This document shows positions 1 to 40,495 of a stretch of 64,000 nt of DNA, piece by piece (within the stretch, counting starts at the first letter, position 1; each line of letters starts with the position of its first letter). Made by a program: the position numbers and the translations under genes. The notes under the pieces are model-generated. The model made no database searches. It was not told where the DNA came from and was given only the letters and a program-made list of their open reading frames with translations. Source of the stretch: Clytia hemisphaerica (Eukaryota > Cnidaria > Hydrozoa > Leptothecata > Clytiidae); assembly GCA_902728285.1 (NCBI GenBank), contig CACVBU010000910.1, positions 1,868,080 to 1,932,079 on the forward strand, in the 5' to 3' direction.

Positions 1-1020
1 GATGTATCTCGATGACTCTGCTCCTAACCCATTGTTTCAAGGTTTTCTGGTCATTTGATATCCAGTGTAGTGATATCTGGATGATTTGAAGAAGGATTTG
101 AAAGAGCGACGAACAATCTCTCCTGTATGAGCATTGATCAGCGATGCCATTAGTTCAGCACGAGGAAGTGTCAAATCTTTTGGAACCATTCGTGAACGTG
201 CAAACACCAACTGACAAGAGAATGTTCCATCCTTTCGAAGGAATCTAGCATAGATGCCAACACAGATAGTTGTTTGACTGGAATCACCAAAATCCAAGGT
301 TTCAACGTCAAGTGAGACTGCATCTTCTGGGACCACAAGGCGTTTGAATCTCAAATGATTGATTTCGGACATCATCTCAAAGTGGGATAACCAGACTGGT
401 CTCAGTTCCTCTGGTATTGCATCATCCCAGCTGAGTTGGCGATCAGTTAATTCTCGTAAATCAATTTTCATTGCAGCTATCAATGGGACAATCTTTCCGG
501 TTATGTCGAATATCTCTCCAACTTTTGATAGACAGTGTCGACGTGTCAGAACATCAGGAATCAAATTGGTTGAATTGGAACTTTTCTTACCTCTACGTTT
601 GGGCGCAAAGTTGAGATCTGGAATAGACAATGACAATTCGTCAGATTTGGAAAACCACTTCATTCCACCAACACCAACGGAAATGCCATCTTCAGTCAAA
701 TGTGATGGTGGGTTTTCTCCAGAAATTGTGATGCCTTTCAGATTGAAAGCACCTTTGGATGTTACAATTTGAAGCTCATCAGCACGTTTGTAAGCTTCTT
801 CTTTGGTGTCAGTTCCAGTAATGCAATCATCCACATATACGTCTTTTTGGATGATTTGGTTGACTTCAGGGGACTCCTGGCTGTTCATTTCAGCAATACG
901 TCTGAGAGCGAATTCCGATTGGTTACCACTTGATTTAATACCATAGATTAAAGTTTTGATAACTTTCTCTTTCGGAATTTTGGTAGGATCCAATTCTTCA
1001 TTCCATAGGTAACGTTGCAA
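1..1020 (-). pseudogene. BEL/Pao RT (YVDD) and RNase H, frameshifted continuation
   Basis: This continues the RT domain from a shifted frame. It holds the catalytic motif KDVYVDD, the connection region (RRHCLSKVGEIFDITGK) and a Pao-type RNase H segment (GIYARFLRKDGTFSCQLVFA, then LPRAELMA). The frame ends at 37, but a +1 frame continues to the window edge with a recognisable RNase H tail (KTLKQWVRSRVIEI). That places another frameshift near 45-60. The rest of the element, with the integrase, is outside the window. Confidence 0.88.
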
Positions 1021-3989
1021 TGATCTTGGTGTAGTTTGACAGTATTGTACATCTTGCTTACATCGCTGTGGATACCTACAGGGTGTATTTGAAATCGGAT
1101 CATGAGATCTTGTAGTTTGTTGAGGTTGTTAGTTCCCTTTGCTAATATGTCGTTCAAACTGTGTCCGGATGCTGTTGGGTGAGAAGCATCAAAGACAATA
1201 CGGCATGGAGTGCTGATGGATGAAGGCTTCCATACAGCTCGCCAAGGGATGAAGTTCTGGATACTGCTTAAACGCAGCATTTCTTGTTGTGAAGATGGAA
1301 GGTCTTGGACATAGGCGACAAAACCAAGGGTCTCCAACTTCTTCTCTGAAGTGATGATGTCATCCTTGTCCTGTTTGTTCTCTGGTTTGCAAAGTTTCTT
1401 GAGCTGCTGGTTGTAAACCTTTAAAGCAATGTCTTTATTTGGTGCCAATCTTGAAGGGTCTTTAATCAGTGGTAAGGTTGCAGTCACAGTGTTCGTTTTG
1501 CTATCAAAGGATACTGAGTTGTTTATGAGTTCTTGTTCAGCTTCCTCTCTGATGCTCAAATCATGAGTATGATCTGATTCCTTGCATGTCCTGCAGCTGC
1601 GACATTTCACACAACGATATGTGATTTCTGTTCCTGTGGTTTCAACTTCGTCAAAGCGTTTCAGTTTGGATGTGAAGGACAGTCTCTTCAGATCAGGGTT
1701 AATTTGTACACCCCATTTATAGAGCTTCAATTGATCGGTGAAGAAATCCATTGCTTGATCTTCACTGAAGTAGGATTGGTGGATTGCTGTAAAAATCTCA
1801 TGGGGTCCTCCGATTACTCCCCTTCCACCATCGGCGTTCTTGAAAACAGATTCGTAGATACCCAGACCAGATGGTAGCTGATAGATTAACTTGGGATGAT
1901 AACGAATATACTTCATACCTATCATCATATGGACGTCGCCACCAACCACTGGTGCAGGTTTTGGAAGAGTTGTAGAGGAGCCACTTGCGATGTGTGACTG
2001 CTTGATGTCGTTCATGACTTCGCTCAACGGGTACTGTGGAAATGTTTCTGTAATAGCATCCATGCAGATCCCACATACTGAAGCTTGTTTTCCATCAGCT
2101 AGTGGTAAGTGAATGCTGTAAATTCCATTGTTGGTTTCTGTTGATGTACCACCAACACCTCCAATACGCATGGTTCCTGATGACACTTGGGTTGCATTGT
2201 CACCAAGGAGTGAGATTGCTGATTTTTTGACGATAAAATCACTGCATCCATTGTCATAAAATATGGTCATACGATTCTTGTTAACATTGATAGTTTGAAG
2301 TAAATAGATACCTCTGTGCTCGTCCTTCTTTGGTGTTGAAATGTTGGATGGGAAGGCAGCATGAAAGATACTGATGTCCTTTGCAAATCTTGGTAGGTTT
2401 GCACTCTTCATGTATCTGTCTTTGAAGAGTTGAAGAACATCTTGATTTTCCTGTGAGTTTTTCTGCTCCTCACAGACCAGAACATGTTTGCGGATTGGAT
2501 ACTTCGCATGTGATGGATGTGGACAGGTGAATGTGCTTTGACATCTATGTCTTCCGGATGAAACATCAGCACCAGGGAACAAGCATTGGTGACAGAAGTC
2601 CTTCTTGCGAAGCAATGAATATCGATGTCCAGGTGTCATCTCGACGAACTTCTTGCAAGTGAAATATTGGATGAGTTGAATCTTGTTGGGTCCATTGGTT
2701 GCGATGTGGTCATCACTGCCGTCAGGACTGTCACAGATTGAACATGTTGGATTCGGCAGTGGACCAGAAGTGTAGGTGCTGTTTGAAGATGAATTTCGAT
2801 TGCCTCGATTGCCTCTTGAATCTGAATTCTTTAGAGGTTGCTTTTTCTTGGAATCGGATGCCACTGAATTGAAGATAAGTACTTTCTGTTGTTCGAGCTG
2901 CAGTTCCTTCTCGAGAAACTTAATGAATCTCAACCATGTTGTTTTGGGGGATAACGTTTCGTTGGAAATTGAGGTTAGCCATCTGGTCAATCTGGTAGTG
3001 CCAATGGTGCGATAAATCTGGTTCAAGCCATCACCGTAGAATAAATGTTCTTCTATATTGTGTTCGACGGCAAGTTTCATCAATTCTTTGATAATATTGA
3101 TAAGATTGTTGAGAGAGTTGATGAGATTGTCAGAATCTTGTTTGCGGTTGAGCGATTCATTTTCGGTGAGTGAATGTAATTTCTTTGATAAGAGTAGTTT
3201 GGTGTCACCATAAGCAGACTTCAGACGCGACCACATCTCGTCAATGTCATCTAGGGTCGTGACGAGTGACAGGGCAGCACCTTTCAGTAGATTGTTTTTC
3301 AGTAGGTCTGGAAGCATATGATGAGGGGTTGTACGATGATAAATCTTTTCGAATGCTGTTTTGAACGAATAGATATCCATCGGACTGTCGTAGCCAGAGA
3401 ATTTGTCAAGACGTATGTTGAGTTTGGACTCATCGAAACTACGTTGTTTGTAGACATCTCTTGTGGTGAGTGAGTCATTGAGCATCTCTTGGTATTTGGC
3501 TTCTGATTTACAGAGTCCTTTATGCTGTTTGCCTATCTCGCCTAACTTATCGAGAAGTTCTGTGTCGTTGATATCTGATTGTAGTAAACGTTCATACCTC
3601 TCCGAAATTTGGATGACTGTAGTTGCTAGGGATGTCGAAGAATTTTTCAGCTCGATGAGTTGAGCATCACTTATTGCGTCGAAATCAGGTGATAAACTGG
3701 ACTTGACGAGGGCCATACTTTGGGTGATGGAATCAATGTTCATGTAGATACGTTTGTACGTCCTTGCATCATCAGAAGACTTGAGAGATCTTTTTTGACT
3801 TCGATTGAGTTGTCGTTTGTAATTATTTGAGTTTAAGACAAACTCTTTGATGGTAGCAAGGGTCGAGTTGATGAATGATAACAGCTTGGCATCTTCTGGA
3901 CTGGGATCGTCAGTGGTTTCGTCTTGGTTGAGAACGTCCAAACGATATTGACGTAATTTGAGTCGAAATTGTTCTTTCAAGCGTTTCAT
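948..3989 (-). pseudogene. BEL/Pao gag-protease-RT (N-terminal part), frameshifted
   Basis: A 1,013-codon frame. Residues about 1-190 are helical and coiled-coil-like. About 190-370 match the DUF1759/gag region (LDKFSGYDSPMDIYSFK). A cysteine/histidine-rich segment follows (CSICD, FCHQC, HRC, C-P-H-P-S-H). Then comes a retropepsin-like segment with FYDNGCSDF, where the usual D-S/T-G is D-N-G. The RT start carries WRAVWKPSS, RIVFDAS and GIHSDVSKMY, the last holding the first catalytic aspartate. The frame then slips just after the LHQDH motif, and the true continuation lies in the overlapping frame below 1020. The ATG at 3989 may not be the original start, because a neighbouring frame upstream looks like the true gag N-terminus. 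Confidence 0.88.
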
Positions 3990-5500: not shown

Positions 5501-6671
5501 TTGCAATGGTAATGTGTGTTTGCCTGGGTTTCCAAAGTTCAGAAAGTTTGTCAACAAGGGTTCACACACAGACTGTTTCAGACCATTATTATTATTATTA
5601 TTATTAATTTATTTGGTAAAGCAGGTCAGGTTCTATATACAAAACTATATACAATTATACACAATTCTGTACATATTGGCAGTAAAAAACTGATGTGGAC
5701 CTACTGGCTAAAAAACGAAAAAGTAAAATCTTGTGAATCAAGCTAAAAGTTGGATGAATCGAGCTAAAAGTTAGTTGAATCTACCTGCACCAAGCTCTAT
5801 AATCTTAGAACTTTGTGAGGTGAGGTATTTTTTGCTTATTCTAAGATTATGAGCTTGGATTCCCAGGCTAGATAAAACCTAGGCGTGATTCAAAATCTTC
5901 GAGATTTCTGAAATGCCAGAAGAAGAAAATGTATACAAAAAATCTCATTATTTTGGTTAGCAGAATTTTTGCTGTGGGAAAAATATTCTTAATTCAAGCA
6001 AACATGATCATTGACAATTTAAACAAAGATTTTCTACGGTTGATACATTATTCAGATAAAGCAGCATGAAAATAATCCTTACTTGAGGGTTGTTTTGTTT
6101 TTCATGGGTTTGAAGACTGTATGAGTAGCATATGAGAATGAGTCATTGTTTGATGTTGAATATATTTTTGCCACAACAATTAAACAGTAATGCTTTGATT
6201 GAACCGTGAAAATTAGGCACACGTAAAGCATATAGAAAAAAGCTCATCATCGAATTGATTTTGGCAATGGATTCAAGTCCAGTTTATGTCACGGCGATCT
6301 GAGTTTGAATCTTTGATCCGCGCGGCAAGCAAAGTAAGACTGTATCGGTGCCGGTAAAACCTGCTTTATCGGAAAATTTGCAATCTCAGCAAAATTACGG
6401 TTTGTAGCTGGTTCCTAAAGAATTTTGCGGCTCAGTCGGACTCAGCCGAGGCAAACCTTTATACTCTCTAACCAGTTCCTTGCTTTCCGTATTATATTAT
6501 TATAACAAGTCCTTTGGCGTTCTTCGTTATGCGATGTTACGATGCGTAGTTAGCAAATAGTACAGAATGCGGTTTTCACATCATTTACATGTTGAATCGG
6601 ACTGTGCCGTTGGTATTTACAAGTGTTTTTTGGTTTTTGATCGATTGTTTTGAATTTTAATTCTTATACAG
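5501..6671. other. Intergenic stretch with microsatellite and hairpin
   Basis: No gene recognised. It holds an (ATT)n run at about 5586-5609 and an imperfect 19-bp-arm hairpin at about 5790-5856 (CAAGCTC..ATAATCTTAGAA / TTCTAAGATTATGAGCTTG). From about 6300 the sequence is less AT-rich and may contain the promoter or 5' UTR exon of the next gene. Confidence 0.5.
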
Positions 6672-7564
6672 CCATGGATTTCAAGCAAATTTTTCTTGAT
6701 TCATGCAAAGATTTTAAATTGACTGTCACCTCAAAGCTTAAAGAGTTGAATAACTTTCGTGTTTCAAGCTTAGATGTTGTTAAAACTTTAAAAAGCCAGT
6801 CAATTCATGAACAAGTTTTTAAAGGTTGTTTCAAAGAAGGTGAGCTCAGTACTTTGAGGCTAATATGGAAAGTTTTTGGCAGTGAATCAATCATGAGGTT
6901 TAACGAGCATAAGGATCTTTCTCTTGTGTGTCCTCTCATGTATGTCACCCTCCCCCACGATAATGATTTGGAACGTGGCGATCTGGTCATCCCGGTCTGC
7001 AAGCTTCCCCCTTTAACTGAGTCTACTGAGGATCAAAGTATGAGAATATTTGTTCCTAGTGACAGTGATGATCTGGAGGAAGCAAGCGTTCCACTGGATG
7101 AACTATTCCACTTTAATCCAAAAGTCCTACCTGAGCAACGGCTGGTTGGCTTTGAAATTTCAACGCGCAACGAGCGAAACTTTCTCAGCGTGAAGATTGA
7201 TCATGGTCTGAATGTTGATGACTATATTGTTGTCCGAGGTAAACATTATAAAATCACAGACATTCACCCTGACGATTGTTTTACAAAAGTTGAAGGCTCA
7301 AGGAACATGATCTACGTTGATCGCAATTTTGAAAATAATGTGAACAATCAGCCGTTGCGGTTTAAGAGAATGATTTACATCCATGGGAAGTTGTTAAATA
7401 TTCCAGTTAGCAAGTTGAAAGTTTTTCGTGGTTTTTCTGTTAACTTTACACATAATAGAAATGACACCAACCATGGAGAGATGTGTATTAAGTTCTCTTG
7501 TGTTGTTTTCAACTCTGGTGGTTTTTTTACTAGAAATTTAGCTATTACAGAGGCAGATATATAG
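6672..7564 (+). CDS. Orphan intact gene, about 296 aa, unknown function
   Basis: An open frame runs from 6650 to the TAG at 7564. The better start is the ATG at 6674: it has a strong context (GCCATGG) and sits directly behind a good 3' splice acceptor (ttcttatacag), which suggests a noncoding upstream exon. The protein is soluble, with no signal peptide or membrane segment. It has an acidic central stretch (SDSDDLEEASVPLDELF) and a mixed alpha/beta C-terminal half with a conserved-looking block (DYIVVRGKHYKI, YVDRNF, RFKRMIYIHGKLL). I do not recognise a family. No TE termini flank it. It could be a host gene or a captured element gene. Confidence 0.6.
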
Positions 7565-8014
7565 ATTATGTTTATAATTAGAGCATGAGCAATTTATCTA
7601 TTTTGAGATTTTTATTTGACAGTTTAACTACCAATATCTTCATTTTTTGATACCCAAGATTGCAAACTAGAAAATATAGACAAAAAGTGTTAAGCAGCGG
7701 TAGTTGTGTATATTTTTCAGTTCTTCTTGTTCACTTCTTAACCAGTTGGGAAAATTTCAGATAATCATTGATTAAGTTTTTTAAAAAATATGGACCTTTT
7801 GCTTGTTAGGTTGTTTTTTCTTATTATTGTTTTATTATTGCCCTTTAAAACTATTCAACATGAAATCACGCCAGGCAAAAAGGTCTATAGAAACAATGAT
7901 GGCAAAATTATTTTTTCCCAACTTGGGCTTTTTCATTTATATATACTTTAAGGCTTGAACATAGGTTATTGTTTACTAGATTATTGAATTTTTTAATGGT
8001 ATCAAATAAAATAG
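7565..8014. other. AT-rich intergenic stretch
   Basis: Probable 3' UTR of the preceding gene, then AT-rich DNA. No coding region or repeat structure was recognised. Confidence 0.4.
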
Positions 8015-8157
8015 GCAGTAATCACAAATCAGCCAAATTTTCTCACCGGTTGTATATTCGACTCAAGCAAAATTGACGCAAATCTCCATTTCGCGTCAAT
8101 TTCGCTTTGCGTCTAACATACAACCTGTGAAAAGAATTGGCCGTTTGTGATTACCGC
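8015..8157. mobile_element. Palindromic MITE, about 143 bp
   Basis: The two ends are inverted copies (GCAGTAATCACAAA at the left, TTTGTGATTACCGC at the right). Inverted similarity continues inward (TTGTATATTCGAC / CTAACATACAAC and GACGCAAAT / tttgcgtc), so the whole unit can fold into one hairpin. It has no coding capacity. Confidence 0.75.
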
Positions 8158-8480
8158 GTTAGTATATATTGTGGTATAGCAATGAAATACAGTGTGTTTT
8201 TGATGACAAAAGGATTCTAAGATATTAAACTACTGATATCATCATTATTATCATGTTCTAATAGGCTGATCTGATCTGATCTGATCAACAACACAAATAG
8301 GATTCTTAATTTAACAAGAGTCGTTGCAATAAACAGACTGTACCCTTATAATCATATAGGTTGGTGAGTCCAGTCAGAACACAGATTCGATCTGCAGCGT
8401 CATGCTTCACCTTTTCTCAATAGTGTAATAGTAAACTTTAATTTATTTTTTTTTCTTTTTAGATGAAACTATAAACATAT
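8158..8480. other. Intergenic, simple repeats only
   Basis: Contains a short (TGATC)n run at about 8268-8285 and a pyrimidine-rich tract just before the tRNA-like array. Nothing coding was seen. Confidence 0.4.
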
Positions 8481-8949
8481 TGCCACGTTAGCTTAAGTAA
8501 AGCGCCTAAGGGAGATCCGGGTTCAATCCCTGGGCGTGGCAGGTTTTCAACTATCAGACGACTATCTGAAGATGGCTCAACCAATATCAAAAGTGTAAGG
8601 AATTTTCTTATCAAGTCTTTGAAGTACATTAAGACACCTGTATAAATAGAGTATTTTTCCTTTTTAAATGAAAGAATAAACAATTGCCACGTTAGCTTAA
8701 GTAAAGCGCCTAAGGGAGATCCAGGTTCAATCCCTGGGCGTGGCAGGTTTTCAACTATCAGACGACTACCTGAAGATGGCTCAACCAATATCAAAAGTGT
8801 AAGGAATTTTCTTATCAAGTCTTTGAAGTACATTAAGACACCTGTATAAATAAAGTATTTTTCCTTTTTAAATGAAAGAATAAACAATTGCCACGTTAGC
8901 TTAAGTAAAGCGCCTAAGGGAGATCCGGGTTCAATCCCTGGGCGTGACA
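8481..8949 (+). repeat. Three tandem 204-bp units, each with a tRNA-derived (SINE-like) head
   Basis: tRNA-like segments lie at 8481-8541, 8685-8745 and 8889-8949, exactly 204 bp apart. Each has a 7-bp acceptor-like stem (TGCCACG with CGTGGCA), an A-box-like TTAGCTTAAGT and a good B box (GGTTCAATCCC). At 61 nt the segment lacks an anticodon arm, so it is not a working tRNA gene. The 143-bp spacer is also nearly identical between units. The third tRNA-like head has a GTGGCA to GTGACA change that weakens the stem. The minus-strand frame across the array (with RPGIEPGSP) is read-through of the B-box region and not a protein gene. Confidence 0.85.
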
Positions 8950-9574
8950 GGTTAATACACCATCACACAACTACCAGATGTTTTTTTTTTAAGAGATAAA
9001 TTTCTATCCATTTGTCATTCTCGAAATCTTAATGATTTTTGGAGTGGCTTAAGGAGTTAGAAATTATTTACAATGTGAATTTTCCTTGCCTAAATGCTTG
9101 GAAAATATTATAGAGAAAATTTTTGGAACACGTAAAATATTTCTCCTATTGTACTCACTACTTATCAATTACAAATATTAAGAACAATTTATGAACAACT
9201 TTCTGTTTCAAATACCTCAAGCAAATTGTAAAAATTTACGTGAGGTACAAGATAATAGAAAGTTTCTTTTTGATTTGAAGAAATAAAATTCCTAAATTTA
9301 ATTTTAATTGAAATTACTACTTGGGTTTCAAATTTGATATTATGAAATATAAAATGAAAATTAACTTTCTTTTTAAATTTTAAGTTCTAATAAAAGTATT
9401 TTTACTTTCTGTTTCTAATACCCCAAACAAATTGTTAAAATTTATTCGAGGTACAAGATAATAGAAATTCTCTTTGATTTTAAATAAATTATCAATAAAA
9501 GATAAAATTCCTAGAATTGTACGCTCATCTAACAAGTGATATATTTGAAACAATAAAATCAATAGTTAAGTTAT
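8950..9574. other. AT-rich stretch with a diverged internal duplication
   Basis: Two related segments at about 9195-9290 and 9400-9490 share ttctgtttc...aatac...caaa..aaattgt..aaaattta and gaggtacaagataatagaaa. This is an old tandem duplication. No gene was seen. Confidence 0.45.
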
Positions 9575-10240
9575 AGTGTTCATCTAACGTTACTCAAATA
9601 AAATAATACATAATAAACCATGAATTGATTAAATTATAACGTTCATCTAACGTTACTCAAATAAATGAATAAATCTTGAATAAGTCTTGAATAAATTAAA
9701 TTATAACGTTCATCTAACGTTACTCAAATAAATGAATAAATCTTGAATAAATTAAACTATGACGTTCATCCAACGTTACTCAAATAAATGAATAAATCTT
9801 GAACAAATCTTGAATAAATTAAATTATAACGTTCATCTAACGTTACTCGAATAAATCTTGAATAAATTAAATTATAACGCTCATCTAACGTTACTCGAAA
9901 AAATCTTGAATAAATTAAATTATAACGTTCATCTAACGTTACTCGAATAAATCTTGAATAAATTAAATTATAACGTTCATCTAACGTTACTCAAATAAAT
10001 CTTGAATAAATTAAATTATAACGCTCATCTAACGTTACTCGAATAAATCTTGAATAAATTAAATTATAACGCTCATCTAACGTTACTCGAATAAATCTTG
10101 AATAAATTAAATTATAACGCTCATCTAACGTTACTCGAATAAATCTTGAATAAATTAAATTATTATAACGCTCATCTAACGTTACTCGAATAAATCTTGA
10201 ATAAATTAAATTATAACGCTCATCTAACGTTACTTCAACT
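9575..10240. repeat. 48-bp AT-rich minisatellite, about 13 copies
   Basis: The unit contains cgctcatctaacgttactcg followed by an AATAAATCTTGAATAAATTAAATTATAA-type tail. The distal copies (9840-10240) are almost identical at a 48-bp period, while the proximal ones vary in length (about 48-65 bp) and sequence. The minus-strand frame through it (repeating VTLDERYNLIYSRFIR) arises because 48 is a multiple of three. Confidence 0.92.
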
Positions 10241-10412
10241 AATTTAATGAATAGGATTTCATAACTGAAAATGGCAAATGAAAGAGAATGAATCTGGGCC
10301 TTAATATTAATGAACATACAAAAACATTTTAGAAAAACCTTTAAAAATATTGTAAAGGAGAATAGTAAATAATTAATAAAAATAAAATCAATAATATGGA
10401 TACGTACAAAAG
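10241..10412 (-). other. Probable 3' UTR of the RAG1-like gene
   Basis: Short AT-rich stretch between the minisatellite and the stop codon. AATAAA-like signals on the minus strand are plausible but not diagnostic in such AT-rich sequence. Confidence 0.3.
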
Positions 10413-11070
10413 CTAATCATCAGATTCACTGTCAGACTCATCAAACTCCACAAGTTGTGGCTGACTTGGGTGACCTCTGCAATTTTTATTATTTTTGTTA
10501 TGTCCTACTTCATGGCAAACTGAACAAACTACATTATGTTCCTTGGACTTAAATACACTTTCTGGATAATGAAATTGTTTCAATCCAATAATTCTTGCAA
10601 CATTCTCAAACTGATCACTGTCAAAGTTAGTACCATTCATCTCCAAAGTCTTAATGCGCTTGTTCAGATGCTCTCCAGCATTACAGTTGAAATAACCATA
10701 CGCAAACCCAATTTTTGCCCAGAAACTCATAACAATGGGAATGTGTTCCCGCAAGATATGGAGATATGGTTTTCTACCAGTTAATTTGCCGAGACAATAG
10801 CGCTTAAATGTTTTAAAGAATAATTCAGCTCTCTCCTTAAAACTATCAATGCGCTCCATATCAACGGTTGTTGTTCTGATATCTTGAGCCAATTCGCGAA
10901 ATAGACGATATAGTGAAATAATCTGCCTGAATTTACCAAAACTTTTACTGTTAACCTCCTCTCCTTCTTTCAAAAATGTGTAAATAAACTTTTCAATGTT
11001 GACCTCAAACTGCTTACAGTCCTGACCAATCATTTTCAGTGTTGAGCTACCATCATAATACTTTTTCTTG
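10413..11070 (-). CDS. RAG1-like gene exon 4: third acidic residue and zinc knuckle
   Basis: Encodes residues 800-1018 and ends with TAG at 10413-10415. The acceptor is attattatttcag. It contains the F-K-x-x-Y-x-x-G-K-L-T block, H902/H909, E933 in NAGEHLNKRIK, and the knuckle CSVCHEVGHNKNNKNC. An acidic tail (EFDESDSESDD) closes the protein. Confidence 0.75.
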
Positions 11071-14000
11071 CTGAAATAATAATAAAAACACTAATAATAA
11101 CATCAATAATTAATTTTAAGACATTCAAAACCTAAATAAAATTGAATAAGCTAAAGACTGTAACAAAAATGACTGAGTTTGATTATCTGGGATTTCAAAT
11201 AGGAAAAAAATCTGTCAAACCTTTTATGATAGCATTCAATTTGAAAAGCCAAATAATCGCAATCAATGCCACGCAACGCACAAGGAATCAAATCTTCTTG
11301 CTTCCTATCAACAACAACATCAAACATGAATTTCCACATATAACGATGATGAGCAAGGATCAAATGAAGACCACAAGGAACAATCATCATCAAATCAGCA
11401 GCATCAAATAGAAGTGGAGCCTATGATAAATTTTCAGAAAAAAAAAATTAGCTTAAAGGAACTGATAGCTGAACTTTTGCCGGCAATGAAGAAAAATATC
11501 CATCGCTATGCCGACAACAAAGAAAAATAGCAGCCAATTTGCCAGCAACAAAGAAAATTTATTTACAGTTTTTGCCGGCACTTTTTCCACCCTTTGCTGG
11601 TTATTATTATTATATTGCCGGCTACGCAAAACAGATGACTGGCAATATGTCAGTAAAAACAAAGCCGACTAATCCTGGGTAGAATTTCATGTCCTTTGAA
11701 TCACTGGTATGGTCACAAGGATGTTATAAGTTATTTTCTTGAGTCTTACTAAAATAAAAGATTTTAAAAGTTGCTTACATACTGCCCAAAATGAGCTTGT
11801 TGAAATTCTGTGAATTCCTTTGTATCGTGTTTTGGGTCTTTGCCTAGAACCTCTAGAGCTTCTTTTCCGAAACGACACATCTCCTCGATCGACTGTTTTG
11901 ATGCTGTTGTCACTGTGTCTTCGTCCCACTTGGATATCACTTTTTTGCAAAATAAACAACCAAACATGCTAGTACATGAACATTTACCAAGAACTTCTTT
12001 CACAAAGCTGAGATCAGCACAAAGTATAGGAATCACATTAAAATTCTCAGTTTTTCCATTTAAATCAACTTCAAAACCTTCTAGGAGGAGAGACTTCACC
12101 TCAGTATAGTGCTCAGCAGTATGAATTTCAACATTGATCCTTGACTCTGCACCTCTCCACAAAGATGATAACATTTGAGCATATGGAGAGTGTAATGTGT
12201 CCTTATTGTTTAAAATAGAGAAAGAAATTTGTTCTGTTGGACATTTGCTTGCTGCACGAAAATTATCCCCTGTTAAACGCAAAAACAATGTCCTGTGATC
12301 TGCACGTAAATGTCCATAGAGGGATGAATTTAGATCTTTAAGGTCTGCAAAAAATGTGTTTTGTTCATTTGGCGCTAAAAAGTTTAGTTGTTTGTACCAG
12401 AAATCATTTGAAAGATACAATTTTAAGCTCTCCTTTACTGTCCCACCAACAGAAAAGCAAACATCATCAGGGCATTTACAAAAAGATCTACGTAAATTTC
12501 CAACATTGAGACTTTTTAAGTAGCTTGTAACATTATCGTACGAGGCCAGCTCAACTTGTTCGTTACTAAGTACTTTCTTCAGATTTTTATAACCCCGTTG
12601 AGTCAAGTCGGTTTGTGAAATGAGAAGAGATGCGCTTTCCCTGATTGGAATTACTTTTCGAGGAGGGTTTTTCATAACGTTCTTGCAAATACTTCTCTTA
12701 AAATTGTCATCATCAATGATACTTTCCTGAATTATTTCAGGATGTTTCTTGAGCAAATATACGACATAGCCTGAATTTGAAAGAAAAAATATTTCTTAGA
12801 AGTTTATGTTATATAGTTTAGAAGTTACACAAAATCAGCTAGAATTGATAGAAAGGGCGAAATTGTTTTTCTTTGCTTAGTACTTAGAGGGGTATAATCA
12901 TTCTGCCATTTTCCCCTGTTTCTAAAGGTACGAAAAATCTTGTGTTTCACTAAGATCCCCTAACTTTCCAAAGCTTATTTTTCAACTACCTGAAGTCCTG
13001 GCCTTTTTCCTAGAAATGTGGCAAAGGGATTTTAGTGCGGAAACGGGAAACTTATACAAAACAACGGTAAAGGTTAAGAGTTAAGGTTATTTCGTTTATT
13101 CGATCAAAAATATCATTCAGCTTGTTGAGATCGTCTTTGTTATGTATTCGTGGATCCCGTTCCATTTGGAGTAGAGAACTGAATACAAATGATATTGAAC
13201 TGACTAACTCTCGTTCAAGAGTTAGCAATAATTAATGTTTCTTAATTAATTTTTTTTTTTATAAATTTTATTGAGTTTTTATGAAATTTTCAAGTTTCTG
13301 TTTCTTTACAGCCCGGCGCAACTACTTAGTTGTGCTATTACATTCTTTTTCAATCGGTCATTTTCGTTAGATCCTAGGTTAGACTCATTGTTACTTGCTG
13401 CTAGCTACAGTCTAGTGCCACTAGCGGTTATTGTTTTCAATTATTATTTTATTTATTTATCAAACCAAATTTACTCTAATTTATTGCCCCTATTGTAAGT
13501 ATATCTGAAATAAAATATTCACGGAAATTCAAAAAAAAAAAAAAAAAGGTTAAGAGTTACTGTTTAAAAATAGACCTTTTGCAATGACGTAATGTTGAAT
13601 ATAATTAAATAATTTCACTAACGTAAAAATTAAAAGAATTCAGTATAGACATTTACGCTTTTGTGTATTTTGTTATGATTTTTCAATTATTCAACATGAC
13701 ATTGTATTCTATAACATTAAGGTCTATTACTCGTGGCAGAATCAGACAAAAAGATAAACACTGGAGGAGGATAAATTGATAAAAACTTACTTTTGAGGTC
13801 ACCAAAACTAGCATAATCAACAATTTCATCTATCTTCTCATTTCTTTTATCCATGGACCTTTTACTCTTCAATTCACTTGTGGGCCCAGCATTTCTATAC
13901 CTAATGTTTTGAATTTCTTTGAGGGGAACTTCATCGACTTGTACTTTTACCTTCTCCAAAACTTTCAAAATATCAGCTCTGTAGAGACCAAAAAATTCAA

Positions 14001-14997
14001 AACCAGACCAGTTCTTTTTGGAAACAGCATTGATATGGGTCAACATCCGAGATACAGAGACAGAAATACTTTCAGATTCAACCCGATGATCATTTGTCTC
14101 CGTAATAAAACAAGGAGTTGGCCCAGAAGCAATGATTTTACAATAAATCAATACAGTTTCTCCATTTCGAACCTTGACACCACGACTTGAGGTAAAGCCG
14201 TTTTGTAGATAGAATGTGATACCTTTGTAGGTTTTCTCATACAATCTTGCGAATTCGCCTGTGACGCGTTTCCCATAACAACTTACACCAATCCACGTAC
14301 AGCATTCTTGGAAATCAAGATTAGAATTCAATGTTTCATTTTTATCCATCTGTGGGGTACTGATAATTTTACCAGATAAGTTGTTGGTCGAAGATGATGA
14401 AGATTCACTTGCTGAGGATGAACAAAGTAAATCTTGCACCTCCTTACGATCCAAACCAAAAAATTTAGCACCAGGCCACCTTTTAGTGGTCTTAACCTTT
14501 AATACATTTAAAATGGCATTTGAAGCAGTAGTTATTTTTAATGAGGTTACATTTCTACCCAAAATAACATTCTCGGGCTCCTCCACAATACTGATGATTC
14601 CTTTATCAACATTGACTTTCTGAGATGCTACATTGAAAATAGGTAGTCCAAGAAAACTTTTACTTATAGAACAAATAACTTTGTAATAGCTGTCCTCTCC
14701 TTTTACTAATCTTGTGGATTTGTATCCGTCTGTAAAAATACCATTTTTGAACTGCCATCCTTCACCTTGAACTTTTCTGCCTTTAGCAACACAAGCAAGC
14801 CAAAATACTTTTAATTTTTCATTGACTAGAAACTTTTCCATTTCTCTAAGAAGTATAAAAGCAAATTTAAATAATGAACTATGAAAATCCAGAAAACAAC
14901 TACTTCCACCATTTCCACCATTTTCATCTAAGGATGAACCAAAACAATCCTTCCTTCCCTTCCGCCGCTTAAAATAAATCCCGCGAAAATCTACCAT
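10413..14997 (-). CDS. Intact four-exon RAG1/Transib-superfamily recombinase-like gene, 1,018 aa
   Basis: The CDS joins 14997-13791, 12770-11779, 11420-11221 and 11070-10413 on the minus strand (3,057 nt, no internal stop). All three introns have GT/AG ends and the splice phases match. The start ATG has context CAAGATGG. Residues 1-400 hold two related modules of unknown fold. From about 410 the protein follows the RAG1/Transib core: D571 in TGDNF followed by TEQISFSIL; D655 in ADLSFVKEVLG followed by CLFC (C674, C677); a helix with LHLILAHHRYMWKFMFDVV; then YCLGKLT...H-L-R-E-H-I-P, and E933 in GEHLNKRIK. A C-terminal zinc knuckle (C982, C985, H990, C997) resembles the CX2CX3GHXnC tail of invertebrate RAG1-like proteins and Transib. 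Family assignment rests on remembered motif order, not on a search. I saw no terminal inverted repeats or target duplication around the gene, so it reads as a resident gene or a domesticated transposase. No RAG2-like Kelch gene was seen nearby. Confidence 0.75.
11221..11420 (-). CDS. RAG1-like gene exon 3: linker helix region
   Basis: Encodes residues 734-799 plus two bases of codon 800. The acceptor is tttatcatag; the donor is AAAAG|GTTTGA. It contains PCGLHLILAHHRYMWKFMFD, which corresponds in position to the helix after the first zinc cysteine pair in RAG1. Confidence 0.7.
11421..11778 (-). other. Intron 2 of the RAG1-like gene
   Basis: Bounded by GTAAGC (donor) and tatcatag (acceptor). 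It contains a short locally repetitive tract around 11470-11650 in which gccggcaa/ttgccggc and caacaaagaaaa recur, possibly a remnant of a small repeat. No coding signal. Confidence 0.6.
11779..12770 (-). CDS. RAG1-like gene exon 2: core with first two catalytic aspartates
   Basis: Encodes residues 403-733. The acceptor is TTTCAAATTCAG at 12771-12782; the donor TAT|GTAAGC ends the exon in phase 0. It holds the candidate catalytic D571 (TGDNF) and D655 (CADLS), the C674/C677 pair (CLFC), and a further cysteine group near 500-507 (CKCPDDVC). Confidence 0.75.
13085..13547 (+). mobile_element. Poly(A) retrocopy inserted in intron 1, with 12-bp target duplication
   Basis: The insert ends in 17 A residues (13531-13547), 18 nt after an AATAAA signal. 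It is flanked by direct repeats GGTTAAGAGTTA (about 13072-13083 and 13548-13559). These are the marks of LINE-type target-primed reverse transcription of a polyadenylated RNA. The 75-codon frame inside (13271-13498) is hydrophobic and not recognised. It may be a 5'-truncated LINE 3' end, a SINE or a processed pseudogene. Confidence 0.85.
13791..14997 (-). CDS. RAG1-like gene exon 1: duplicated N-terminal module
   Basis: Encodes residues 1-402. Two modules, about 62-191 and 231-347, each begin with a tryptophan block followed by G-x-x-V-x-G-E (FWLACVAKGRKVQGE; TWIGVSCYGKRVTGE). Each ends with the same signature (RWPGAKFFGLDRKEVQDLL; NWSGFEFFGLYRADILKVL). A serine-rich linker separates them. 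The function is unknown; DNA or protein binding would be a guess. The donor is AAAA|GTAAGT at 13790-13785, phase 1. Confidence 0.75.
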
Positions 14998-14999
14998 CT

Positions 15000-15294
15000 T
15001 GAATATTTTATCGGCAGATCAAAACAGATAAGAGATCCCTCGATCCCTTCCTCATCCCGGGTGAGATCCCTCTAAAAAAAGTTTGAATTGTCGAGCCTAT
15101 AGGGCTTTCATTAGTGGTCTTTCTTGCATATTTAACAGATTTATTAGCATAAATTCAAAAATGACATAAATTAGAGTGCTTCCGTGTATTTTTCTCTCAA
15201 AAAATAACAAATACCGGTACTTTGGAGTTAGCCTCTCCAAATCGAAATACGGAACTTTAGTTATCCCCGCAAACCCCAAAGATCGCCGTGTGTT
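15000..15294. other. Upstream region of the RAG1-like gene
   Basis: Presumed promoter and 5' UTR of the minus-strand gene at 14997. Contains a short repeated word (gatccctc) at 15034-15072. No heptamer-like or inverted terminal sequence pairing with the 3' side of the gene was seen. Confidence 0.35.
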
Positions 15295-15657
15295 TCAACT
15301 TTTGCAATCAGATATGGCGTTCCAAAATAATAACACATATTCAATGCAAAAAATGATAATCAAAATATCACAAAAAGTCCAATTAGTATTGATTTTTTTG
15401 GCAATTTGAATATCTCTATTCAACTTATTGCTTAAAAACCTCCTGAATCGTACAGATGTGTAAATGATAATACAGTAACGGAAGACAATTACTATTGCTG
15501 GCAATATGAATACGACCACAAAAACAAAGAAGAGAGCATAATATCTTTTATCCTCCCAAAAGAATCTCAAACCAGCCGTTATTATACCAATACCCCGAAC
15601 AATGTTGTTTAGACTGTTATGTCTAAAGGCAAACTTGGCAGCCAACATTCTGATCAA
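15295..15657 (-). pseudogene. Possible rhodopsin-type GPCR fragment (TM5-TM6)
   Basis: A 120-codon frame with two strongly hydrophobic helices. The first (ALFFVFVVVFILPAIVIVF) contains a proline and is followed by a basic loop, as in TM5 and intracellular loop 3. The second is CDILIIIFCIEYVLLFWN. Helices 1-4 and 7 and the DRY, CWxP and NPxxY motifs are absent, so if this is a receptor it is a remnant. Another two-helix membrane protein is equally possible. Confidence 0.3.
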
Positions 15658-15788
15658 TACTGATTGCTGTTAGTAATAAAATTGAGGTTTTACTAAAGAG
15701 GACATCCAAATAATGAGTTAAATTCATAAATGATATGTTCATGTGTCATGAAATCTATAACGAAAGAAAAACTTTGCCACAAAATATG

Positions 15789-16044
15789 TTTATTCCTAAC
15801 TTCAGTTGAGCTAGAATCTGACAATGTCTGTATGCCTGTCCAAAGACTTTGAGGCAGCCTGGAGATTTCAAAAATTGTTCGATTTGGCTGAAATTTTGCA
15901 TACTTGTTCCTTGGGTGAATATCTGGGGGTGTTTTTCATTCTTCAAAAATTTTGATTTTTGGGGCCCGGGGACGAGTTTTTCACCAAAACGAGGCTGAGA
16001 CTTAAAACTTTGCACACTTGTTCCTTAAAATGTTACAATTGGGC
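15789..16044 (-). repeat. Dispersed repeat, copy 1 (inverse of 40178-40495)
   Basis: On the minus strand this matches the segment at 40178-40495: gcccaattgta, gaacaagtgtg, ttcagccaaatc, ccccagatattcacccaa and cagacattgtcagatt occur in the same order. Copy 1 has lost part of the first internal subunit. It has no intact coding capacity. Confidence 0.8.
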
Positions 16045-16513
16045 TTTTATCATCCAGAAAAATTTTTAAATGTCATTCAAGCTGCCCAAATATTAGTCAC
16101 TTAGGTATGTACCATATTGAAGTATTCTGATAATAGAGCAACTACGATGCAAAAATGGTGCAAAAGTATTAGTCAGTAGTCAGTATTTTTAGCTCTCGAA
16201 GCTTTTGTAGGGTATCAGTAACCGTGAAATTAGACAACATAATAGTCGGCGTCAGTTGCATTGTTTTTTAGACACTTAAAAATTGCGATCAAGTCTGATC
16301 TTTCTCCCAGAGTAATAACAAATGTCTTATTAAACGTTATTTGGTTCCTGTTTTAATTTGATCCATATGAGCTCAACTCAGGACGTACGTAGTTAAAGAC
16401 AAGAATTACGAGATTAGTTAACTGTCATGTTGGTGTAGCTTACTTGGAAGAAGAAGCGATGCAGTTCAATAGAAGCCCAGGATTTTCGATTCTTGGTGTT
16501 CCTTTGAAATATA

Positions 16514-16779
16514 TTAGATGTAGAGCACTTTTACAATCAAATTGCATACTTCATGCTCCAACCTGAAGAAAAAGTGAAAAAGACTGTAGCTAGGTCCAAT
16601 TCCGATGGAGTGATCAAAATAAAACAACGATACAAATAAGACAAAATATGTACGATATACTTGCTGGATGTTTGTCTAAAATTTGTCAAAAATAATGTAT
16701 CCATGAAGAAAAGTTTTCCAGACCAGTCAAAACATCCAAGGACAGAGTTTGATTTGAAAGCCCATTTCTGGGATGCCAT
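16514..16779 (-). CDS. Possible small two-exon gene, 55 aa
   Basis: An ATG at 16779 in good context (CAAGATGG) opens MASQKWAFKSNSVLGC and so on. Joining 16779-16661 to 16562-16514 uses GTATATC and cttcag splice sites and gives 55 codons ending in TAA. The first segment alone also stays open for 80 codons. No domain was recognised; the splice signals are the only support. Confidence 0.25.
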
Positions 16780-18906
16780 CTTGAATCATTGTTTTCCTTT
16801 AATGTGGTGAAAAACGCGCGCAATGATTTTTGCATTTTTTAGGCATACTCAAGCCGCGCACATAAACGCGACCGCTTTCAAGTTTGTTTCGAAGATCAGG
16901 TGGATCTTCAAAAGAAACTTGAAAGCCTTCGCGAAAAAGAAAAAGGCGTTTTAAGAAAAATTCCCCTAGAAACGGGAAATTTTAAAAAGACTTGCCTGTC
17001 TCCACTTTACATGACACTTTCAGTAGTTTCCAGACGTTAATTCATAGATCAATTTATATTTCAAAGGCAAAACCCAATGATGACCAAATAAACCTGTAAA
17101 AAGGCTTGTATACTCTTGATTTTCGAACTTTGAAAATTAAAAACGAAAAAAATAATACCGCTTTTTAAAAACCAGACTAGTTAAATTGAAAAGTTGTTGG
17201 GAATGAATTGGACTCGTGTTTATTGCCAAACCACACAAACATTCTCCACGTTGTTTCAGTTCATCTGAATCAAAATGACTAATGACTATAAAACTTTGTG
17301 AATGATTTAGCGGTTTTCTTTATAACCATCTTAGCGTCTTTTACCAATTCGTTTTCAAAGATGCAAAGCAAACGATAACTGTATTCTCGAAATACAATAG
17401 TGACATACATAGTCACAAATTTCCTCAGCATTTCCATCATTCGCTGGTTTTGATGACATCAGTTTTTCCTTGACAGAGCGTGCTAGTTTTCCAACTGAAG
17501 TACCGGGTTCACGGAGATTGTGAAATCACTGCGATCTTTAGAGTAATGTTTAATAATCGGGGAAATCGAAAGTCTATTTTTGTAAAAAGTGCTGTAAAAG
17601 TTCTTAAAAGGACCCCATTCTTTGGGTGAATAAAGCCCTAGTATGTACAATTTCAACACAAAACTTTTTTTTTTAAGATTGTGGTTCAAAATCGGATAAT
17701 TTTGGAAATGTTTACTTTCAGCTCCCTCAATATCCCACCACATCCTGCGTGAGCTCCCTCAAAATCGGAATTGGAATTATTCCGGACTGGAAAGGAGTAG
17801 AACTTTGAAATTTTCACTGTAAATTCGCTTTTTAGTTCTTCTACGGATAAAGGAAAAATGATCTCTTTAGACATCGTCGATTTTTCTTTATGGCCAAAAT
17901 TGAACATTTTTGAATCCGATTTAAGATCGCCGTGAATGGATATACAATGGCTTCCTCAAACACATTTGTTAAGTATGTGATTCCTCCTTGGATTGATTCC
18001 AAGAAGTGAGAGATGGAATTTGATTAAAATCGCTTGGATATGGATTTATGATAGAAAGAAATTTTGTAAGTCAAAGACTTTTTCAGTGTCAATCCACTTA
18101 AGTTCCTTTATAATAAATTACATGAATATCATATGAATAATGATTTCATTTATCTGGTTGACTGGTTTTTTATTTTGTGTTGTTTTTTTTTAATTAGAAT
18201 CACTATTAAATTTGCTCTAAATTCTGTTGTTTTTGATTGGCTTTTATTCTACCTGGGAAATCCTGAAATTCCGACCCCACTGTGTATTCCAGAGAATTCA
18301 CATTTGAGGACAACCCACGCTTGTTTCTCGAAACCATACCAAGTTCCGGGATCTTGTCCACTTTTCTTAGCTTGCATGCCTGTTTCCATATCCTTACCTT
18401 ACAGGGAGACTCCATATTGAACTCTAACCGTATAGAATATTTCTACTGAAAATTGAGTTATTTGAGGATAACCTACGTTTGATCCTCAAATTCTGCAGTT
18501 TGGAAAAATTGTTCGTTTTTACTGCCATCGGAAAAACGGAAATTCTGCAACGCCTTTGTTTGTCGAATTGACGCCCCTTTTCCGTGTTTATACCGGTGAA
18601 ATCCTAATCCTTACCGTATTCTCGAAATTTTCGTATACTGTAATTTCCTGTCTGTTTTCCGAGTTTTAACCGTTTCCGAAAACTTACCTTACCGCATTCA
18701 GGAAATTCCGCGTGTTTTCAGTTTACTTCTAAAGCTTTTTACCGTCAAGTTCTTACCGTATCTCCGAATACCGCATTCTGTCTGTTACCATTCCAAACGT
18801 TTGAATTTCTCCTTATCTGTAACTCCTGTTTCGTATCGTTGTTCCACATATACCATATTCCATCAAAAATAATCTCAAAATTTTTCTGGCAGGAAAACTA
18901 CAAGAA
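16780..18906. other. Long stretch without a recognised gene
   Basis: Frames at 17483-17907 (minus) and 18133-18420 (both strands) have no recognisable domain. The 17730-17765 region repeats gagctccctcaa(t/a)atc. The 18450-18870 part is rich in short degenerate ccgt/ttcc/gaaa words. I see nothing here to support a gene. Confidence 0.4.
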
Positions 18907-19414
18907 ATGGAGGAAATCAAGCACTCAGCAGAAATAATGACGGAGACATCAAAGAAAACATGCGCCGAAATTACTAAGAAGCACAAAGACTTAAGATCTG
19001 CCGATGATCAAAAACGGAAGGAAGAAAGTGAGAAGAGAGAGATGGACTCTATAAAACTAAATATTATCGTTCACGGGTTTCTCGAATATTCAGGCCCATA
19101 TAAGGTAGAAGAAGAAAATTGGAGAAAATGTGACATAATTCGGTTCAAGATCACAGATCATTTCACAATTAACGAACGGAAAAAGATAAAGCAGATGCAC
19201 GAACAAGCAAAGAAAATAAACTAAAAACAATAAAGACTTCAACTGGCGCGTAAGAGGAAGCCTACGAACAAAACAACGCATCGTTAAAAAATTACAAAAT
19301 CAAACCAACATATCGTCAAAATATAATGAACAAAAATACACTACAGCAGAAATCGTCAGCGATCGGGCATCAACAGATGGCGTAAACTATTCCGCTACAG
19401 ATGATGATGAATGA
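18907..19414 (+). pseudogene. LINE ORF1-like fragment (L1-type RNA-binding region)
   Basis: The frame at 18907-19224 has a charged, coiled-coil-like start, then SIKLNIIVHGFLE...DIIRFKITDHFTI. That is the style of the RRM-like region of L1/Tx-type ORF1 proteins. A shifted frame downstream to the TGA at 19412-19414 (FNWRVRGSLRTKQRIVKKLQ and an acidic end, ATDDDE) looks like the C-terminal continuation, so there is a frameshift near 19200. No reverse transcriptase is adjacent. Confidence 0.45.
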
Positions 19415-20000
19415 TTTATTTTGTAAATAGGCAGTCGAACTCTATTAGCTTTAAAGCTAGTACAGATATGATTTTGTTGTTACTTAAGCTACGACAGCTT
19501 CGTGTATTATGTTTTGTTGAATATCATGTGATCAAGTGATCAGACTTATTCAGCATTTATTATCGCAAAGCATTATTGTAATAATGGTAGACCGAGTTGC
19601 GAAACATATATTATATCTCGCGTTAGTAAACAAACACGCACGTTACCACTTATTAATTATCACAGGTTTTTGAACATGCATGCACATGCGGGTGGCTTAC
19701 GGTAAACGTAACATCATGGATTTATTATAGAGACTCTGGATAAACATCGAATGAAACGGTGGAGAGCGAAGTATTGTATTTCCATTGTTTCAGAAAACAA
19801 TCGATGTACAGGCTTTGTTCGCAAAGGACAACTGTCATGGCGGCTCGAAGGACTCTTATTTCTTAAATGATCTCTAACTTTATCTATTCATACTTTTGCT
19901 GGCGAAAAGTTTGGAAATAAATGCTAGTATACCAACCGGATACATTTATGAAATCTGGTATGAGAAAAACATCACCAGACAAATAAAATCAAAGAAGATA
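19415..20000. other. Stretch without a recognised gene
   Basis: Mixed sequence between the ORF1-like fragment and the next element. Nothing coding or repeated was recognised. Confidence 0.35.
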
Positions 20001-20882
20001 CGGTTAGTGTAAAACGCAGGTCACAGGTCACAGGTCACGGGTCACAGGTCACAGGTCATACAAATTACAGACCGGAAAACTATAACGCACTCGTAACATA
20101 CAACCCATAACATAAGCTTAGACATAAATATTAGATGTAATGTAAATGTAATATTAAAATATGTTATTTAGAAGACTTAAATGACAAATCATCAACCCAA
20201 AATATTGAAAACAAATGACACTTAAATTATGTAAATAATGATGTTATCTCAAAGTATGAGGTTTTGTACACCAATTAACAATAAAATATTCTTCGTGCAT
20301 AATAGGATGCTGATACTGCAAGTGGATATAGATTGACAGGTTTCGAAATCAAGAAATACTCCAAGAGAGCTGTTTTAGAGAGATGAAAATAGTGACGTCA
20401 TTTTATCAAAAGTACAAAGCAGGGGATAAAAATGTTGAAACATTTATAAAATATAAGCTCATTGACACTATTTTCATCAATTCTTGTTATCATACCCAAG
20501 GTGATGCAGGAGATAAAATGAGATACGACATAGTGATTGTGAAATAGCTATTTTCCTGATAGGAGGCTGTTCAAAGCAAAGGTGAGATCGATATTCGAAT
20601 ATTTCTTTATTCTTTGTATATCACATACGTACGTAACATTCGACATGATATTTTGTTTACATATGTGATATAGATGTAATATATAATACAAGTATTACAG
20701 GTCCGTGTTATACACGGCATAAAACGCGAAATCACGTGGTAAGCACTTGGGTAGATTTTTAGCTTTAAAATAGTTCTAGATCAATAAAATACCTCTGTAT
20801 TGGCAAATGATGTATTTATGATTTGTAAGAGGAAAGATATCAAATTGACAGTGACTTGGATTGCTGTGTTTTACACTAACCG
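20001..20882. mobile_element. Non-autonomous TIR element, about 0.88 kb
   Basis: Ends are CGGTTAGTGTAAAACGCAG (left) and the inverted CTGTGTTTTACACTAACCG (right), one mismatch in 19. Just inside the left end, 20019-20058 carries five to six copies of (GG)GTCACA. Flanks (AAGAAGATa / AAGAAAAT) could be a decayed 8-bp duplication, which would fit hAT. No transposase is encoded. Confidence 0.6.
20019..20058. repeat. Tandem gtcacag repeats
   Basis: Repeats of ggtcaca (one copy gggtcaca) lie head to tail just inside the left terminus of the TIR element. Subterminal repeats of this kind can be transposase binding sites. Confidence 0.8.
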
Positions 20883-22316
20883 AAGAAAATGCTTATAATG
20901 ACACGAAATTGGGAAAATACAACGAAGAGCTGAGATTAACATGACAGCTCCACTGTGGTATGAAAATCTTTTGGTGGCACAGTGGATATTTTGAAGTTGA
21001 ATTTTAAATATTTCTGGTGTCAATACTCAATTTCTTATACATAGCATGTTTTTGCATTTTTCTCGCAATTTAAAACGTCATAACGACCTATAATTAGCAA
21101 GTAACTAGAAGAGTTTGAATCTCAGAGGAGAACTTAAAGTCTCATTTGGGAATTGGATAAGTGTAATTGATGATAAATGCAATTAGAATGCCATGAAGAA
21201 TCACTTTAGTGGTGGAAGGAGAGTGAACAATACTGTCATTACTGCGGACAAGAGTTGCACATGAGAAATTGGCAAAAATCAGTCAGTTGTTTTTCCAGTG
21301 TCTATAATAACTCCTTGGTAACATTAAATTCTTTCAGGCTTATAAAAAAACACTCAATAAATATCTTTTTACTAGAGAGCAGAGCATTTACGCATATCTT
21401 TATAGCCGGAGATTCGTTCTTATGTATTACAAAAGAGGTATTGTCAAACAAAATTTCTTTTGTATAGTTCGATAGTTGTTGTGATCTATATCCTGAAATT
21501 TCATTTTGCATAAATACTGAAAAAATTTTCATTTATAGTGGGTGATAGCCTAAAAAGTAAATTGATTTGGATAAAATGAAAATCTATTTTGAAATTGATT
21601 TTTTTACGAGATTAAATTAATTCGATTTGAACTCAATTGGAATATTATTTTAAAAATATCTCAATTTAGAAATAATTAGTTTTTTTGTTTTTTTTTTCAT
21701 TAAAAGAACTACTTGGCATTCTTCAGAATCCATGTACCGAAAGTATAATTTGAAAAATGAAAAATGACAATTTTCATTTTTTTAATAAAAGAAAAAAGGA
21801 GTGTGAAATCTATTTTCGAAAAAATAGAATATGAATTTATTAATATTTTCTATGGTAGTCAGTCTGGCAGTGAATAAAGAGCTGATATCATGAATAATAT
21901 AAGAATCGATGACTTGATTACCGTCCATAAAACTATTCTGTCGCGCTAATAACTTGTCACCTAGAGTAAGCAGTGATTATTTATCTGATTTGGTCAATGT
22001 TCATGAGGTAAGTTTAATTTTTTAATGCATGAATTGTTTAAGGAAGGTTATCTATTCATAATTTTTTATGTAAAATCTGAAAGTTTAGCCCACGCTCAGT
22101 TGGTCTGGTCTTCTTAGAAATAATTTGGCTTATGATTCTCGCGGAATAAACAAGTATAACCATTTCATTAATGTTCAGGGGAAAATCGAAAAATGATTTG
22201 GAAACCCAAACAAAGTGTTCGGTATAATAATCTGACTCTGAATCTTATCTATTCTCAATTTAACTTATGGAAGGAAAATGCTTACTGGTTACACCAGGCA
22301 CAAAAAGAAATTAACC
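20883..22316. other. Stretch without a recognised gene
   Basis: AT-rich. Overlapping frames on both strands at 21255-21532 show no domain. 21540-21860 is rich in attttcattttt-type words. Nothing else is supported. Confidence 0.35.
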
Positions 22317-40177: not shown

Positions 40178-40495
40178 GCCCAATTGTAGACCCCCAGATA
40201 TTCACCAAATGAACAAGTGTGTCAAATTTCAGCCAAATCCAACAATTTTTGAAGTCTCCAAGCTGACCCAAATCTTTAGCCTCGTTTTGGGGAAAAACTC
40301 GTCTTCAGGCCCCAAAAATCAAACTTTTCAAAAAATGAAAAAAACACCCCCAGATATTCACCCAAGAAACAAGTGTGCCAAATTTCAGCCAAATCCGACC
40401 ATTTTTGAAGTCTACAGGCTGCCCTAAGGTTTTTGTGACAAACAGACAGACACACAGACATTGTCAGATTGTAGCTCAACTGAAGTTGAGAATCA
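40178..40495 (+). repeat. Dispersed repeat, copy 2, with two internal subunits
   Basis: Inverse match of 15789-16044. Two subunits of about 95 bp (40190-40285 and 40349-40445) share CCCCCAGATATTCACC, GTGT(G)CCAAATTTCAGCCAAATCC and TTTTTGAAGTCT. Ends with aacagacagacacacagaca and a short hairpin (tagctcaac/gttgag). Non-coding. Confidence 0.85.

Follow-up and report, generated by a model that had tools for sequence, protein, structure and literature searches.

A RAG1-type catalytic layout and two FYR domains in a probable two-gene DNA transposon of Clytia hemisphaerica

The DNA ends associated with Transib transposons and with RAG1 carry a heptamer of the CACARTG type. Transib insertions typically duplicate 5 bp of their target (PMC4411706), and the residue signature of these recombinases marks the whole CACTA-Mirage-Chapaev-Transib (CMCT) group, RAG1 included, according to PMC12730594, where CAC..GTG ends with a 3-bp duplication support the EnSpm label. 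The paired genes RAG1L and RAG2L are arranged convergently (PMC7204232). Here we analyzed a 64,000-nucleotide stretch of Clytia hemisphaerica DNA (the window: GCA_902728285.1, contig CACVBU010000910.1, positions 1,868,080 to 1,932,079), in which an earlier note, made from the letters alone, had read positions 10413..14997 as a RAG1/Transib-like recombinase gene, domesticated or long resident. Those coordinates cover about half of a 9-kb element. Judging from its sequence and that of its sister copies, this is very probably an autonomous DNA transposon of the cut-and-paste kind that is still intact, with two convergent genes: a putative transposase and a second open reading frame (ORF2).

The assembly was searched as a whole (417 Mb, 951 contigs; the window sits at G000:C628), and exon 2 of the transposase gene gave at least 106 matches with E<=1e-3 when 122 of the 128 candidates were scored. 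Among the matches listed, 14 are full-length, starting at query residue 1 or 2 and reaching 329, and stop-free. The nearest copy, in G000:C594, is 99% identical to the window in exon 2 and shares large pieces of 6290..15290 at 94-98% DNA identity, with no match outside this interval within the 16 kb fetched. It has an extra 2 kb at window position 8350 and lacks an insert found in intron 1 of the window copy. The 9001 bp common to both (6290..15290), set in unrelated flanks, begin and end with perfect 11-bp terminal inverted repeats, CACGGCGATCT at 6290..6300 on the plus strand and, at 15280..15290, its minus-strand counterpart, which reads AGATCGCCGTG on the plus strand. Comparison of the copies also revealed a target-site duplication, TGT, at 6287..6289 and 15291..15293. 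The element ends 4.1 kb past the transposase stop codon and 0.3 kb past its start. No terminal inverted repeat or target duplication had been noticed before, and it was the comparison with a second copy that brought the ends to light: in the window alone, a search of 6000-10412 against 14998-21000 had longer chance matches outranking the 11-bp ends among its best 15, and another gave nothing usable, its left flank starting at 7500, inside the true end.

Both ends were located in nine of the 15 copies (the window, C594, C232, C633, C804, C133, C113, C797 and C560), each with at most 3 mismatches to CACGGCGATCT. The copies not counted are C358, C596 and C237, with one or no recognisable end, and C901, C747 and C250, for which only the ORF2 side was fetched; in C901 the alignment of this end starts at the fourth base. 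Eight of the nine copies agree with a 3-bp duplication, and for seven of these, lengths of 2 or 4-8 bp do not fit. The ORF2-side end of C113 was chosen from two candidates with 3 mismatches each, as was that of C560, and both choices are supported by the matching target duplications. The window/C594 and C232/C633 pairs are dispersed copies with unrelated flanks. Terminal inverted repeats, target-site duplication and dispersal into unrelated flanks, the marks of a cut-and-paste transposon, are therefore all found here. The end heptamers, CACGGCG and CACAGCG, are of the CAC..GTG type and agree with the CA..TG ends and 2-5 bp duplications of the CMCT group. Two observations by eye concern the C232 copy. 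It is inserted in an open frame resembling a Rep/helicase protein (G000:C232, about 204779-205951 and 215658-216200; flanks not joined), and bases 2454-3422 of L036 (G000:C232:209001-217000) hold a 323-codon open frame that looks like a cargo gene of protein-kinase fold, inside the related element in a stretch common to C232 and C633.

A second, shorter element lies 2.2 kb away from the transposon. It is 408 bp long (17527..17934), has the ends CACTGCGATCT / AGATCGCCGTG, which equal the 11-bp ends of the 9-kb transposon except for one mismatch, and is flanked by the duplication AAT. It has 40 scored genomic matches including itself (233 candidates), of which 28 span exactly 1-408, and is presumably a non-autonomous passenger moved by this or a related transposase. 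The coding sequence of the transposase bears signs of constraint. Between the window and C594, exon 2 shows 5 synonymous and 4 non-synonymous changes (ratio of non-synonymous to synonymous rates, dN/dS, 0.21), and against C358 157 of 202 synonymous and 137 of 785 non-synonymous sites have changed, an excess of synonymous change which argues that the protein has been kept between subfamilies. An intact frame, conserved residues (69 of the 71 columns invariant in the other rows of the family alignment described below are kept in the window protein) and the insert in intron 1 would also suit a RAG1-like host gene that is domesticated or long resident and under selection, as previously proposed, but perfect ends, a target duplication, a sister copy elsewhere in unrelated flanks, more than 100 genomic matches and non-autonomous relatives refute this at the window locus, and we hold it to be highly improbable. 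Where a domesticated gene would be a single locus free of mobile ends, the family here is multicopy, and terminal inverted repeats enclose copies of it; since the earlier note had itself named such a family as what would overturn its proposal, we treat the locus as a transposon and not as a domesticated gene.

The second gene of the transposon, ORF2 (6674..7564, plus strand, in an open frame at 6641-7564), encodes an orphan protein of 296 aa and lies tail-to-tail with the transposase gene. Its relatives in other copies are 59% (C358), 48% (C596) and 43% (C633) identical. We found 70 ORF2 matches in the genome, merged into 52 places, and counted pairs from hand-transcribed coordinates (106 exon 2 rows, 70 ORF2 rows): a transposase lies within 16 kb of 30 places, being convergent in 29, divergent in one (the C600 tandem cluster) and on the same strand in none. 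The convergent pairs include ORF2 relatives of 20-25% identity (C327, C759, C265, C592 and C226). A kelch or PHD match, as would mark a RAG2L-type partner, was found in none of 14 ORF2 members; a weak match to a helix-turn-helix model (E=0.0015) occurs in a single member and not in the others.

Several observations weigh against an intact, autonomous two-gene transposon. Copy C633 has no 3-bp duplication (2 bp only), and that of C594 is ambiguous in a T run. In addition, 22 of the 52 ORF2 places lack a transposase within 16 kb, and 42 of the 73 transposase places lack a convergent ORF2, suggesting that many copies are partial or were missed by the search. ORF2 is broken in C594 and C232, was not found in the 17 kb fetched for the divergent C237 copy, and has no recognised fold, its 14 members yielding no shared Pfam family and no PDB chain. 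Furthermore, the window copy carries in intron 1 an apparently retroposed, poly-A-tailed insert (13084..13545, plus strand) between 14-bp repeats, AAGGTTAAGAGTTA, at 13070 and 13546, which probably arrived after the window/C594 split, as it is absent from C594. Lastly, the roles given below to the FYR domains and to ORF2 are ones that we infer.

The transposase gene is on the minus strand. Its four exons (13791..14997, 11779..12770, 11221..11420 and 10413..11070), rebuilt from the window with GT..AG introns, join into a single frame of 1018 codons without internal stops, in agreement with the earlier description. Ten splice combinations keep the frame open in the gaps searched, and the set used here is the earlier one, with the best-looking sites by eye. 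Exon 2 carries D571 (12265-12267), D655 (12013-12015), C674 and C677, exon 3 the H752 of an LH motif, and exon 4 H904, H909 and E933 (10671-10673). Among 5834 candidates, we retained 15 protein relatives, some from the hydrozoans Clytia and Hydra and others from unnamed sources, which align to 84-100% of the core with identities of 35-48%; two added searches (8000 candidates scored in each) contributed one and four more, for a total of 20 proteins. Of these, P0007 (Clytia hemisphaerica) is 100% identical over 370 aa to the genomic locus L030 on C265, and P0009 is 98.5% identical to the locus L028. The viral contigs scanned held no relative, and scans for Rfam families and transfer RNAs (tRNAs) gave no match. 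The relatives that reach the three exon junctions align there without gaps, except P0018, with one gap at the exon 1/2 junction, where its frame begins, and P0015, with a deletion at the exon 2/3 junction. P0016 leaves its frame and P0018 starts at the position of intron 1, and these frame ends suggest that this intron is old. Codons 1-52 find no support in the relatives. Met53 (14841) is the likelier start, since its equivalent is the first residue in the C232 copy and in the gene models P0007 and P0010, and the protein may thus be 966 rather than 1018 aa long. As a separate observation, the N-terminal residues of another family gene model, P0008 (Hydra LOC124814958), resemble by eye a fused reverse-transcriptase fragment, probably an annotation chimera.

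The catalytic core was examined in an alignment of 20 rows, comprising the window protein and all fetched proteins except P0016, which is N-terminal only (19 of 20). The triad D571-D655-E933 stands where it had been placed before, with D571 present in each of the 20 rows, D655 in all 19 that have a residue at its position and E933 in 14 of 15, the sole exception being a misaligned residue of a truncated row. The pair C674-x2-C677 after the second aspartate is likewise confirmed (20 of 20 rows). From the G-K-L-T...H...H block of the earlier note, the histidines H904-x4-H909 are kept in 17 of 17 rows, but the letters GKLT are not conserved. This agrees with the residue signature of the CMCT group, a DDE triad whose second D and E enclose C(2)C and H(3-4)H. 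To compare it with RAG1 we used as anchors what we take to be D600, D708, C727, C730, H795, H937, H942 and E962, the letters of which match the PDB-corrected sequence. Along the order D-D-C-C-H-H-H-E the distances in RAG1 and in the family are 108/84, 19/19, 3/3, 65/75, 142/152, 5/5 and 20/24. The catalytic and zinc residues of RAG1, together with H795, are treated in PMC7204232. The RAG1 order of D, D, C2C, H, H4H and E with similar spacing was reached in none of 200,000 letter shuffles of 95 conserved columns and none of 50,000 random-position trials, under tolerances that were chosen after the spacings had been seen and are tight only for 19 (±1), 3 and 5. Residue similarity to RAG1 around the anchors is weak but present (masked blocks, each p 0.018-0.064).

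These results bear on whether the element truly belongs to the RAG1/Transib superfamily but has diverged too far for profiles to detect it. Such membership would explain the common order and similar spacing of the residues, the first ranks in RAG1 of the family-profile blocks at the D2-C2C site (1 of 391) and the H4H site (1 of 404), the C-terminal CCHC tail and the presence of a convergent partner gene, which RAGL transposons also have (PMC7204232). For the other three of the five blocks, D1, LH and E, the top window in RAG1 is not the catalytic one. Comparison with RAG1 and Transib cores, which the earlier note had advised, found no match: Pfam RAG1 is absent among matches at E<=1 in 15 family members (mouse RAG1, the positive control, gave 3.4e-254), hhalign against the single mouse RAG1 sequence returned a probability of 0.3%, and PDB profile searches at E<=10, with profiles of the whole family and of seven mostly core-only rows, gave no RAG1 or Transib chain. 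The flanks, too, hold CACGGCG/CACAGCG ends and a 3-bp duplication in place of the CACARTG-type repeats and 5-bp duplications that had been suggested, and the residue signature is common to the whole CMCT group (PMC12730594). We therefore consider superfamily membership unlikely. The likeness to RAG1 stands for the catalytic and zinc layout and fails for membership; because the signature is group-wide and the profile searches were negative, the predicted core belongs to the CMCT group and is laid out like RAG1, without being assignable to RAG1/Transib.

By their sequence, the ends and the duplication are of the EnSpm/CACTA type and not of the Transib type. One reading, possible but less likely than not, is that the element belongs to the EnSpm/CACTA family proper and is perhaps already in Repbase for hydrozoans, its FYR domains unnoted; CAC..GTG ends with 3-bp duplications lend support to that label in PMC12730594. 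The transposase itself speaks against this, as no Pfam transposase family appears among matches at E<=1 in the 15 family members, and no FYR-bearing transposase is described, by title or start of abstract, among the papers listed in the literature searches, Repbase and most subscription papers lying outside their scope. The element is best filed as what looks like an active lineage of the CMCT group.

The N-terminal half of the predicted transposase is made up of two FYR domains, at residues 62-192 (14422..14814, minus strand) and 230-350 (13948..14310, minus strand). The two segments represent one and the same domain, aligning with each other in hhalign at E 3e-24 to 9e-24, and a joint profile of 16 segments recovers the TBRG1 FYR domain (PDB 2wzo) along most of its length with E=5e-5, the next match being at E=0.16. 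Pfam FYRC matches five of 15 family members, at best with 8e-4, while domain 2 of the window protein reaches a weak E=0.11, below the curated cut-off. The FYRN and FYRC parts join the two halves of MLL1 (PMC8022399), and the FYR region of JMJ14 likely has a protein-protein function (PMC12985737). At the C-terminus, a zinc knuckle Cx2Cx3GHx6C (residues 982-1000; 10470..10526, minus strand) can be read directly from the pattern. Pfam zf-CCHC_6 matches seven of 15 family members and nine of 11 tails, with the window's own tail not among the matches listed, and the nearest PDB match of the tail is TAF1 (E=0.11). As far as we have seen, the combination of FYR-FYR, a RAG1-type core and a convergent orphan gene is new as an architecture, and a CMCT-group DNA transposon is known as a kind.

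Taken together, these features suggest how the element could work. The transposase would be a DDE enzyme with an RNase H-type core, the triad D571-D655-E933 and one zinc held by C674, C677, H904 and H909. It would bind the CACGGCGATCT ends through the core and partly through the C-terminal knuckle, excise the element and join it to the target with a 3-bp stagger. The two FYR domains would probably make protein-protein contacts through which the transpososome is anchored on host chromatin or on partner subunits, and the ORF2 protein would probably be a required partner, an end-binding or target-choice factor, as RAG2L is for RAG1L. Going further, we tentatively propose, as possible rather than probable, a deep and so far undescribed animal transposon lineage in which CACTA-type ends and a RAG1-type core form their own two-gene convergent system, still mobile, with FYR tying the transposase to host chromatin complexes (e.g. 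of H3K4 methylation) and ORF2 playing the part of RAG2. If so, it would have arrived at the RAG1-RAG2 design independently or by a sister route. In any case, the ends, duplications and sister copies place a RAG1-type residue layout inside a two-gene transposon that is non-Transib by its ends, offering a case against which ideas on how RAG1 became dependent on a partner can be tested. The FYR chromatin domains would be the first in a transposase among the literature searched. Clytia is a laboratory jellyfish whose genome has intact copies, near-identical ones and non-autonomous passengers, which makes the activity directly testable there.

Other features of the window lie within or around the transposon. 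Just past the transposase stop codon, inside the element, a tandem array of 48-67-bp units with AACGTTACTC (9566..10234) could hold protein-binding sites; the array was also considered as a transposon end and rejected, being internal to the element. At 8449-8953, also inside, a 204-bp unit is repeated 2.5 times, and a GGTTCAATCCCTGG stretch in it looks tRNA-derived by eye, yet ARAGORN finds no tRNA. A dispersed repeat, 83-88% identical, occurs at 15789-15996, in the outer flank of the element, and at 40190-40496. Farther away, a minus-strand open frame of 1013 codons (951-3989) resembles by eye a BEL/Pao-type retroelement protein, with no Pfam match at E<=0.01, and 52445-53260 and 31427-31945 hold, respectively, a piece of a DDE_1 (pogo/jerky-like) transposase (E=2.3e-5) and a weak P-element helix-turn-helix match (E=0.0029).

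When compared with known systems, the element resembles EnSpm/CACTA in its 5'-CAC..GTG-3' ends, its 3-bp duplication and the C(2)C and H(4)H that separate the second D from the E, and differs in a transposase that lacks a Pfam transposase match and bears two FYR domains, and in its convergent orphan partner gene. With Transib it has in common the CMCT residue signature and CA..TG ends, whereas its duplication is 3 bp instead of 5 bp and its profiles match no Transib chain in the PDB. In the RAGL (RAG1L-RAG2L) transposons and in vertebrate RAG1, the residues D, D, C2C, H, H4H and E follow one another as they do here and at similar distances, and RAGL has in addition two convergent genes and, in invertebrate RAG1L, a C-terminal CCHC tail, which reads Cx2Cx3GHx4C there and Cx2Cx3GHx6C in our element. 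Unlike these, the element has an N-terminal FYR-FYR, a 3-bp duplication, other ends and an ORF2 without a kelch or PHD match. The TAF1 zinc knuckle has the pattern Cx2Cx3GHx6CP in common with the element, where it stands at the C-terminus of the transposase. Lastly, the FYR domain is common by profile to the chromatin proteins TBRG1 and MLL/KMT2, and in the element it is duplicated and fused to a transposase.

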